This document shows, piece after piece, positions 56,770 through 60,115 of a stretch of 64,000 bases of DNA; within the stretch, counting starts at the first letter, position 1, and every line of letters starts with the position of its first letter. The notes under the pieces were generated by a model. That model was not told the DNA's origin and ran no database searches. It saw only the letters and a program-made list of their open reading frames with translations. Origin of the DNA: a bacterium (lineage in GTDB: Bacteria; UBP15; UBA6099; JAJRTR01); NCBI GenBank assembly GCA_024278215.1, contig JAJRTR010000011.1, positions 29,787-93,786 on the forward strand. Direction: 5' to 3'. The position numbers and the translations under genes are program-made.

Positions 56770-57165
56770 TCAGGGTTTAAAATTGGGGCTTGTGCCCACC
56801 TGCTCCTGGACGATTTGATATATGTCCGCGATCAGGCCGCCGATGAGCGGGAGGTTGACCATGTGTGCCAGAAGGTACATTGTGAGTCCGAGCAGCACTG
56901 TCATACCGAGCCCGAAACCCAGCCCGCGCGCCAGGCCCCACAGAAAGTTAGTGTACCATATACGGCCCGGCCGGGTCACCATATCGAGATATTCGACAAA
57001 CCGCATTCTTTCCATCATCATCGCCAGTTTGTGCAGGTTGCGCACAGTGTCTGTGTCGAGTTGTACAATCTCCCGGGGCTCCGGAATGGAAAAAGTGCGT
57101 GTCTCGGTGTTCTGGTTTCTATCGCTGTTGTCCGGTATGTGATCAGACAAAAAAATCATCTCCAT
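56770..57165 (-). CDS. DUF5665-type membrane protein
   Basis: About 131 residues from ATG 57165 (MEMIFLSDHIPDNS); a TTG at 57198 overlapping the preceding stop would add 11. The first half is charged (TVRNLHKLAMMMERMRFVEYLDM). One or two membrane helices (about 70-112, FLWGLARGLGFGLGMTVLLGLTMYLLAHMV) follow, then an amphipathic end. The YLDMVTRPGRIWYTNFLWGLARGLGFGLG pattern is typical of DUF5665. It is close downstream of the MBL-cNMP-hemerythrin gene, almost overlapping, so the two are probably co-expressed. Function unknown. Confidence 0.75.
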   Translation of the reverse strand: MEMIFLSDHIPDNSDRNQNTETRTFSIPEPREIVQLDTDTVRNLHKLAMMMERMRFVEYLDMVTRPGRIWYTNFLWGLARGLGFGLGMTVLLGLTMYLLAHMVNLPLIGGLIADIYQIVQEQVGTSPNFKP

Positions 57166-57194
57166 GCTGAATATATAGTGAACCGGTTGCAAAA

Positions 57195-59789
57195 TCAAAA
57201 TATTCCGTGTCCGTTCATAACAGCAGTATATTTCTTATCAACAACCAGGGTGTGGTTGACAAGCCAGTCTTTGAGGAAATCCAGGAACTCCATGCCGGTA
57301 ACCGCTGTCCCGGATGAGAACCTTTTCCCGAAACTGTCAATATCCTGCATAAGCCTTTTGTGTTCTTTCGCGTGATAATCCAGGTCGTGGTAGCCGCATT
57401 TTTTCATGAGCGTTTCTTCCCTGCTGAAAAGGAAGCCGGCATATTCGGTGAGTTCGCCGAGCTTACCTATAAAAAAAGACTTGTCGCTCAGGTGTGTGAA
57501 AGCCTCACAGAGATTGTTTACCATCTCGAACAGAACTTTGTGCTGTTCGTCGAGTTCACGGACATTTACACTGTAATCTTTTTTCCAGGCAAAAGCGAAA
57601 TGTGCGCCGAAAGCACGCATCCTTTTTTCGAAAGTCTCGAAAAGCTTCCACTGAATATTCGGTATCTCGGCGAGCGCCTCACCGGGAATCCTGAAGCAGG
57701 CGGAGTCCTGCGTTGCCCTGGCCTTGAAAAAACTCGCTGTATCGAAGAGCACACTCTCCTCGCCGACAAAACCGCCGCGGCCAAGTGTTTCGATAATCTT
57801 GTTTTCGGAATAAACCTGTATCTCACCTTCAGCGATCAGGATCAGTTCCGCGCCGTTGCCGTCGGGCAGCAACTCGCCTTCGCGGAAAACAGTTTTCTCC
57901 ATCAGGCGGGCGATCCGGTTCTGCATCGGGTAGGAAACCATTTCGCCGAAGAGCCAGGTGCCGAGCAGGAAGCGCCTGTTCTCGTGTGCCCTCATGATGT
58001 CGTAGTACATATTGTTGCGCTTCACGAATTCCAGGTAGATGTCGCGCGGTATCTCGATAGCCTGGACATAGCTGTCCGCGCGGAAAGTGCCGCCGGACTT
58101 ATCGCCTCTCATGCCTGAAATTTCACCGGCGAGTGTGCCCGCGGAGAGCATGTTTTTTATAGTTGTCTCCGATTCGATGTACTCGACAACACCCGTGAGA
58201 ATAAGATAAATGCGTTTATTGACGGCACCGCGTTTGAGAAGAATCGTGCCGGGATTGAGGTTTATTATCGGGAAGTTAAGGATCGTTCTCAGCTCGTGGT
58301 CGGGCGCTGTGGGGAAGTATGAACGCAGGAAACGAAAAGCAGCCTGCATCTTGTAGTCCTGCCGGGCGGCAATGAGGACATCCTGCGTGCCGAAAGATGT
58401 GCTCGATCCGATTTCCTTTTCCCTGTCGGTGAGTTCGCGCGCAGTGTGGCTCAACAAGATTTTACCCGATGTATCGTCGATAAAATCTTCGGCCGCGCCG
58501 TGCACAAGACCGCCGCCGATGTCAATCTTCTTGAGGTCGACCGGTACAAGGTACTGCTCTTTGACGCTGTCGAAATATTCCTGCGTTATCCCGCTTTCGG
58601 AGTCATCGCCCGTGATCATGTCGCCAAGTACTTTAAATGAAGCGATGTCGGCCATGTGCGCATAAGTTTTATATCCGTTCTCCCAGAACGAGCGGAAAAA
58701 GAAAATGTTGGTTTCAACAGGATGGGGCGAAAGAACGGGTTTCACTTCGAGCCCGTCGATGTTGTTCCAGACGTCGAACTCCAGGTCGTGTATCTCGAAA
58801 TACCTCGAGAAGCGTTCTTCGCTCATGGACATGAGCGCTGATAGCTTTTTAGCAACGGATTCGCGAACAAGCGGAGTAGCGAAATATTTTATCATGTGGT
58901 CGGAACGAACAATCGAAGTGAGACTGGCGAAATGGTCGTCGTGGCAATGGGTATGAAATATGCCGTCGATCTCGCTGACACTGATACCGAGAGCCGTGAG
59001 GCTGTGCATGATATTCGGGCCTGCGTCTATAAGATAAAGCTTTCCCTGAAACGAAATTATACTGCCCATGCAAGGACGTGTGAAGTCCCAGCCGTTGCCC
59101 TCTCCAATGTGTATTACCGAAAAGTACTCTTTTCGTATTTTGTGAAACCCGAGAATGTATGCGGATTCGTATCGCTCACCGCGGGCAAGGTTGAGGTCCA
59201 CGGTCATGGACCTGTTGCCGTAATATATTTCGTATACGTTGAACCTTCTTCTGCGTATGAACGCGCCGTCCCTGAGTTCCACTTTTTCTTTGTCTACGAT
59301 TCTCACGTCGAGCAGGTCTTCAGTGCGGCTGATCCTGTCGAATGCAAACTTGATCTTTATGCGCATCATGTCGCGAGCGGCAGGCTCGTGTATGCCGGTC
59401 TTCATTATTTCATCTTTGGAAGTAAGGCCGTAGTTGCCGCGAAAGATGTAAGTGCTCTGCGCTTCGACCTGGTTTTTAATGCCGATCAGCATCGGTTTGC
59501 GGCCCGTGTTATTGGGATGATCCGGAATTATCAACCCCTGCCTGTAGAACATCTGGAGAACCGGGAATTCAGCGAGATTGGAGAAATCGCCTTTCTGCAC
59601 CGACACATCCGACAGCAGTATTGCGTTGGGACCTGTTTCGAAGCTGGTGCCGTCTTTTTCTTTCCCCGTGATCAGCCCGCGTTTCATCATATGCTTCACT
59701 ATATCCGCCGGGCAACCGCACAGCACAAAAAGATCGATCTCCGGGATGCCGATCCAGTATACACCTGCTGTAAGTTTTATCTTTTCCAT
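57195..59789 (-). CDS. metallo-beta-lactamase-fold / cyclic-nucleotide-binding / hemerythrin fusion protein
   Basis: 864 residues from ATG 59789 (AAGGGG five bases upstream; an earlier in-frame start lacks one). An unassigned N-terminal region (about 1-220) is followed by a metallo-beta-lactamase fold (about 225-450) with THCHDDHF metal motif (His281, His283, Asp285, His286) and LVHG/LLSHTARE later ligands. Two cyclic-nucleotide-binding-like domains follow (about 510-610 and 625-725: LNPGTILLKRGAVNKRIYLIL and FREGELLPDGNGAELILIAEG). Last is a hemerythrin domain (about 735-864) with DEQHKVLFEMV, FSREETLMKKCGYHDLDYHAKEHKRL and WLVNHTLVVDKKY, the His/Glu/Asp di-iron set. No membrane helix. Likely senses O2 or redox and a cyclic nucleotide. 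Confidence 0.88.
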   Translation of the reverse strand: MEKIKLTAGVYWIGIPEIDLFVLCGCPADIVKHMMKRGLITGKEKDGTSFETGPNAILLSDVSVQKGDFSNLAEFPVLQMFYRQGLIIPDHPNNTGRKPMLIGIKNQVEAQSTYIFRGNYGLTSKDEIMKTGIHEPAARDMMRIKIKFAFDRISRTEDLLDVRIVDKEKVELRDGAFIRRRRFNVYEIYYGNRSMTVDLNLARGERYESAYILGFHKIRKEYFSVIHIGEGNGWDFTRPCMGSIISFQGKLYLIDAGPNIMHSLTALGISVSEIDGIFHTHCHDDHFASLTSIVRSDHMIKYFATPLVRESVAKKLSALMSMSEERFSRYFEIHDLEFDVWNNIDGLEVKPVLSPHPVETNIFFFRSFWENGYKTYAHMADIASFKVLGDMITGDDSESGITQEYFDSVKEQYLVPVDLKKIDIGGGLVHGAAEDFIDDTSGKILLSHTARELTDREKEIGSSTSFGTQDVLIAARQDYKMQAAFRFLRSYFPTAPDHELRTILNFPIINLNPGTILLKRGAVNKRIYLILTGVVEYIESETTIKNMLSAGTLAGEISGMRGDKSGGTFRADSYVQAIEIPRDIYLEFVKRNNMYYDIMRAHENRRFLLGTWLFGEMVSYPMQNRIARLMEKTVFREGELLPDGNGAELILIAEGEIQVYSENKIIETLGRGGFVGEESVLFDTASFFKARATQDSACFRIPGEALAEIPNIQWKLFETFEKRMRAFGAHFAFAWKKDYSVNVRELDEQHKVLFEMVNNLCEAFTHLSDKSFFIGKLGELTEYAGFLFSREETLMKKCGYHDLDYHAKEHKRLMQDIDSFGKRFSSGTAVTGMEFLDFLKDWLVNHTLVVDKKYTAVMNGHGIF

Positions 59790-60019: not shown

Positions 60020-60115
60020 GTAGGGCTGGGGCACCGTACCCCGCCTGAACATATTTCTCGCGAAAACAGTTTGTACAGGCACAAGTTGAGGCGGGGTACG
60101 GTGTCCCAGCCCTAC
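60020..60115. repeat. long hairpin with 27-bp arms
   Basis: Arms at 60020-60046 (GTAGGGCTGGGGCACCGTAC...) and 60089-60115 pair over 27 positions with one mismatch, around a 42-base loop. A piece of the loop (CGCGAAAACAGTTTGT) is inverted again at 60249-60264. No coding capacity. It is immediately followed by the segment shared with 30497-30585. Confidence 0.8.

Follow-up and report, generated by a model that had tools for sequence, protein, structure and literature searches.

A widespread and apparently undescribed bacterial protein family that joins a metallo-beta-lactamase core, cyclic-nucleotide-type folds and a hemerythrin domain

What might a bacterium do with a single polypeptide that links a metallo-beta-lactamase (MBL) domain to two cyclic-nucleotide (cNMP) domains and a hemerythrin? 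The question is raised by an 864-aa protein encoded in the window, by which we mean the whole stretch of 64,000 nucleotides analysed here. The protein is read from a single ORF on the minus strand (59789..57195), with its ATG at 59789 and its stop at 57195 (Table 1). The combination of domains described by a first-pass annotation of this DNA is supported throughout by profile matches, from Pfam cNMP_binding (E 8e-19, two stretches), Lactamase_B_2 (E 2e-7) and Hemerythrin (E 3e-8) to the NCBIfam bacteriohemerythrin model NF033749, which scores 116 bits (E 1e-33) against a curated cut-off of 84. Our preferred reading, to which we give an even chance, is that the protein is a phosphodiesterase of class-II type whose catalytic core forms a pseudo-dimer and whose C-terminal O2/redox module is impaired in this copy.

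Table 1. Features of the 864-aa gene and its downstream neighbour, in window coordinates.
Feature	Position	Strand	Evidence
Whole gene: N-domain, MBL, CNB1, CNB2, hemerythrin (864 aa)	57195..59789	-	ORF, Pfam, full-length homologues (46-57% identity) in other genomes
Predicted degenerate N-terminal MBL-fold domain without metal motif, residues 1-215	59145..59789	-	AlphaFold model, ELAC2 alignment
Catalytic MBL domain, RNase Z / Apyc1 type, residues 222-474	58368..59126	-	Profiles, structure matches, invariant metal ligands
THCHDDH metal motif, residues 280-286	58932..58952	-	Sequence; [T/S]HXHXDH signature (PMC9293780)
CNB1, residues 508-592; Ser565 at the phosphate-binding Arg position	58014..58268	-	Pfam, alignment
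CNB2, residues 624-709; Ser686 at the phosphate-binding Arg position	57663..57920	-	Pfam, alignment
Bacteriohemerythrin domain, residues 733-859	57213..57593	-	NF033749
Codon CTT (Leu787) at the second iron-binding His position	57429..57431	-	Read in sequence, ligand census
DUF5665 membrane-protein gene, downstream neighbour	56770..57195	-	Pfam (E 1.4e-17)

The architecture is common, which the first-pass annotation had named, together with prior characterisation, as a ground against its own reading. When 98 related genomes were searched in six frames, three from the same order proved to have full-length homologues at 57% identity and one distant genome a homologue at 49%, and shorter paralogues lacking the hemerythrin turned up in this and related genomes; the paralogue of the same genome (L137, G000:C8:8448-10628; 56% identity) has the N-domain, the MBL domain and the CNB tandem. 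When 84,980 species genomes were scanned, 484 relatives emerged. Among the best 80 of these, 67 carry the hemerythrin, across many phyla, a share that may differ in the other 404. The taxa of these 80 include Desulfobacterota/Thermodesulfobacteriota, Magnetospirillum and other Rhodospirillales, Magnetococcales, Spirochaetota, anammox Planctomycetota, Nitrospinota, Nitrospirota, SAR324, Ignavibacteriota, Armatimonadota and Poribacteria. With the window protein added, our census set comprises 81 sequences, 68 of them with a hemerythrin domain; one of the other 13 (L072) runs into the end of its contig, so that no verdict on it is possible. Viral contigs contained no relative of the 864-aa protein, and the plasmid matches listed were confined to the hemerythrin domain, none of these records spanning the bulk of the protein. 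A literature search, which left most subscription journals outside its reach, found neither a description nor a characterisation of the MBL, cNMP and hemerythrin combination, so that this is apparently a widespread but undescribed bacterial protein family.

On the tree, the proteins that lack a hemerythrin are scattered over several separate branches (about seven, counted by eye), which is consistent with repeated loss of the domain, and its absence from several lineages implies that it is not essential to the core. A tree of the hemerythrin domains that included free hemerythrins had too little resolution in its branching to tell one fusion from several.

The genes that surround the family vary. 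The first-pass annotation had proposed the almost overlapping downstream gene as a partner; that gene is indeed of the DUF5665 type, but by tblastn it adjoins the 864-aa gene in this genome alone, relatives of the same order carrying DUF5665 elsewhere, and we rejected it as a partner. A conserved operon was likewise rejected, as the neighbours differ (PAS histidine kinase, HDOD, MFS, HemD, MarC and others), and no constant gene partner was found across the neighbourhoods of the relatives. Close behind the gene in the Magnetospirillum-type members L059 (the copy of Paramagnetospirillum marisnigri, with intact hemerythrin ligands), L060, L071 and L101, at a distance of 3-70 bp and in the same orientation, comes a gene coding for 650-720 aa; the only annotated one, that of L071, is a PAS-histidine kinase. 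Upstream of the gene in the window lies a 96-bp palindromic element (60020-60115) with 31-nt arms, 94% complementary, and a 34-nt spacer. Across the genome, with its 207 contigs, similar palindromes recur at about 40 sites (60 matches, many of them hitting both strands), suggesting a MITE-like repeat.

The hemerythrin signature, as given in Kitanishi's review, is H-HxxxE-HxxxH-HxxxxD (PMC9388753). The window protein has a full-length hemerythrin domain in which it reads H750 - L787xxxE791 - H806xxxH810 - H846xxxxD851. Contrary to the earlier claim, the di-iron ligands are not intact: the histidine of HxxxE is replaced by Leu787, its codon being read from a 207-contig draft assembly in which a base error is possible. 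This second iron-binding His is present in 66 of the 68 hemerythrin-bearing sequences, and all seven ligands are intact in 53 of them, the remaining 15 having at least one substitution. The relatives of the same order have Gln in place of His806. In the Desulfobacterales members L034-L037 and L039, Asp stands for His846, possibly marking a changed rather than a dead metal site. Free hemerythrins are known to vary at ligand positions, which may affect how they bind O2 (PMC4919030). Because a His ligand is lost, hemerythrin sensing in the window protein, judged from its sequence, is probably altered or gone. The O2- or redox-gated enzyme envisaged by the first-pass annotation fits the family, with its majority of ligand-complete members, but is weakened here by H787L. 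One might go further and speculate that the whole regulatory half is decaying in the window protein, and that the enzyme operates independently of O2 and nucleotides, like the hemerythrin-free paralogue and sisters. The H787L change, and the complete absence of a hemerythrin from both the closest tree neighbour (L058) and the paralogue of the same genome, would favour such a decay, whereas the domain has kept its full length and comfortably clears the family cut-off; we regard this reading as possible, if somewhat doubtful.

The phosphodiesterase with an impaired O2/redox module, which we prefer, starts from the catalytic MBL domain. Flavodiiron MBL proteins have an HxExD ligand motif. The motif of the window protein is HxHxDH instead (T280-H-C-H-D-D-H286), on which ground we rejected a flavodiiron reading, and the further His, Asp and His of the RNase Z-type ligand set (H356, D381, H448) are present on the MBL fold. 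The first-pass annotation was right in calling the metal site intact: H281, H283, D285, H286, H356, D381 and H448, plus H430, are invariant in 81 of 81 aligned sequences, and the same residues, H430 included, in all 83 rows of an alignment (A3) that takes in the distant family II. The best PDB profile matches of the domain were Apyc1 7u2s (E 6e-13), 7t28 and 7u2r, followed by ELAC1 and RNase Z. Apyc1 was also the best structural match (Z 23.8 over 220 residues), with PqqB, PhnP, RNase Z and an arylsulfatase close behind, within about 3 Z. THCHDDH fits the [T/S]HXHXDH signature of the atypical class-II phosphodiesterases (PMC9293780). Apyc1 requires Glu74 and Tyr112 from the partner protomer (PMC9117128); its Glu74, located five positions beyond the final His of HxHxDH, corresponds to Thr291 in the window protein, and Thr also stands in the family consensus.

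The N-terminal domain, left unassigned by the first-pass annotation, is strongly conserved and common to family I, to which the window protein belongs, and the distant family II. Its conserved motifs are LCGCPADxxKH, ETGPNAILLSD, NLxEFP and YxxRGNYG. In a Pfam search with the whole protein no family matched this domain, and N-domains alone gave sub-threshold matches only. An AlphaFold model of residues 1-496, built on an alignment of 83 sequences, reached a pLDDT of 94.8 and a pTM of 0.92; an earlier model from 7 sequences (pLDDT 59.7) was set aside. In the N-terminal half of the model, strands and helices follow one another as in an MBL domain, and the metal motif is lacking. In the structural alignment, residues 1-474 match residues 58-756 of human ELAC2 (Z 19.9, 374 residues, rmsd 4.3), as against only about 220-225 residues for single-domain MBLs, so that the N-domain contributes to the ELAC2 match. 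We therefore predict from the model that residues 1-215 form a degenerate MBL domain whose metal ligands have been lost. A profile comparison of the N- and C-domains (hhalign) gave no signal of similarity, and the MBL nature of the N-domain accordingly rests on the predicted fold. Judged by secondary structure and Apyc1 alignments, the RGNYG motif (117-121) appears to fall at a helix end equivalent to that of Apyc1, where the Apyc1 chain has [KR]GGL; the catalytic domain has no such motif. We propose that the N-domain may keep the trans-acting face, and the C-domain the metals. Two stand-alone versions of the N-domain plus MBL pair (about 480-500 aa, without CNBs) occur in one bacterial family, f83 (L138, L139, L140, L007, L120 and L121), one version being family I-like and the other family II-like.

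Such a pair could also serve another chemistry. The catalytic domain might act on a substrate other than a cyclic nucleotide (RNA ends, phosphonate or sulfate esters, small phosphodiesters), an ELAC2-like pair binding a larger substrate. The small structural distance between Apyc1 and RNase Z, PhnP, PqqB and the arylsulfatase would allow this, as would the fact that ELAC2 alone spans the two halves and that scores with RNase Z profiles reach 39 bits. However, the score of RNase Z profile TIGR02651 (38.6 bits) is far below its cut-off of 292.95, a separate canonical RNase Z (330 bits) is encoded in the same genome, so that tRNA maturation is covered, and the only precedent found for an MBL domain with a CNB tandem is that of cNMP phosphodiesterases. 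We consider this alternative rather unlikely.

The best profile matches of the CNB tandem are the regulatory domains of PKG and PKA. In the HMMER alignment, the Arg of the PKG phosphate-binding motif PRSA falls on Ser in both folds. This Arg is found in CNB1 of 0 of the 81 sequences and in CNB2 of 5, whereas other cNMP proteins of the same genome retain PRSA, PRTA or KRSA; most family II proteins keep it in at least the first CNB (assessed by eye). Since it is missing from both folds of the window protein, canonical binding of cAMP or cGMP appears unlikely; binding of another ligand is possible. The first-pass annotation had the cNMP domains reading a second messenger, which in its canonical form finds no support, and the catalytic domain, with Apyc1/YhfI-type phosphodiesterases as its nearest solved structures, is the more likely link to such a messenger. 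That annotation's proposal of an O2-gated enzyme that also reads cAMP or cGMP through its CNBs can draw on two clear cNMP folds, the cNMP activation of GbpA/GbpB and the Arg kept in CNB2 of five relatives, but is quite improbable given the absence of that Arg from CNB1 throughout the census and the lost His ligand of the hemerythrin.

The closest characterised counterpart of the window protein is the pair GbpA/GbpB (class IIb phosphodiesterases) of Dictyostelium, MBL enzymes with two downstream cNMP domains that are activated by cNMPs and are described without a hemerythrin (PMC11988041). Compared by description, not by sequence, they share the order of an MBL catalytic domain followed by two CNB domains; theirs bind and respond to cGMP/cAMP, whereas the window protein has CNBs without the binding Arg and carries a hemerythrin as well. 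Apyc1, YhfI of B. subtilis and mycobacterial Rv1339 have the closest catalytic domain by profile and structure, with THxHxDH and RNase Z-type ligands (PMC9117128, PMC9293780), but are small enzymes without regulatory domains, homodimeric in the case of Apyc1 and YhfI; the second protomer of Apyc1 is here apparently replaced by the degenerate N-domain. In ELAC2, the long form of tRNase Z, a degenerate N-terminal MBL packs on a catalytic C-terminal one, as in our predicted model; it matures tRNA, lacks both CNB and hemerythrin, and shares no sequence evidence of N-domain relatedness.

A phosphodiesterase role is thus plausible in our analysis, given the GbpA/GbpB precedent, the genome's own RNase Z and its class III nucleotide cyclase domains (eight clear and one weak), which also make cNMP turnover in this genome plausible. 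The top rank of Apyc1 in profile and structure, the fit to THxHxDH, the invariant ligands and the retention of the hemerythrin in most lineages point to the reading that we prefer; against it stand the many chemistries of the MBL fold, with PqqB, PhnP and an arylsulfatase scoring near the phosphodiesterases, and the Thr in place of the catalytic Glu74 of Apyc1. Our analysis establishes the domains, the ligand census, the distribution and the predicted fold, and we infer a phosphodiesterase activity, a cyclic-nucleotide substrate, a cytosolic location and signalling from hemerythrin to enzyme. The protein would be a cytosolic, metal-dependent enzyme of phosphodiesterase type, from the class-II or RNase Z-Apyc1 branch, and its catalytic core a built-in pseudo-dimer in which the C-terminal MBL holds the metal site and the N-terminal MBL lacks metal ligands but retains conserved residues of its own. 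Notable among these, RGNYG would end the helix whose Apyc1 equivalent leads into the segment that acts on the active site of the partner. Two PKG/PKA-like folds in tandem, presumably not gripping a cyclic phosphate in the usual way, would link the core to the C-terminal hemerythrin. In most relatives the hemerythrin would hold two irons, and its O2 or redox state may alter the conformation and, via the CNB tandem, the activity of the enzyme.

Bacteriohemerythrins fused to second-messenger or signalling modules are known in Bhr-HD-GYP, Bhr-DGC and DcrH, whose outputs, unlike that of the window protein, are HD-GYP, GGDEF or MCP; according to a review, no hemerythrin sensor phosphodiesterase other than Bhr-HD-GYP is known (PMC9388753). 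We think it unlikely, yet worth stating, that the present family is a second, unrelated type, in which O2 or redox state controls a class-II cNMP phosphodiesterase whose active site is shared by a catalytic and a dead MBL in one chain, the cNMP folds acting as a mechanical relay or binding a different ligand. If true, such an enzyme would be a bacterial counterpart of GbpA/GbpB, and would bring oxygen sensing and cAMP/cGMP turnover together in one polypeptide in sulfate reducers, magnetotactic bacteria, spirochaetes and anammox planctomycetes. The predicted bacterial ELAC2-like pseudo-dimer also bears on how protomers share active sites in MBL phosphodiesterases.
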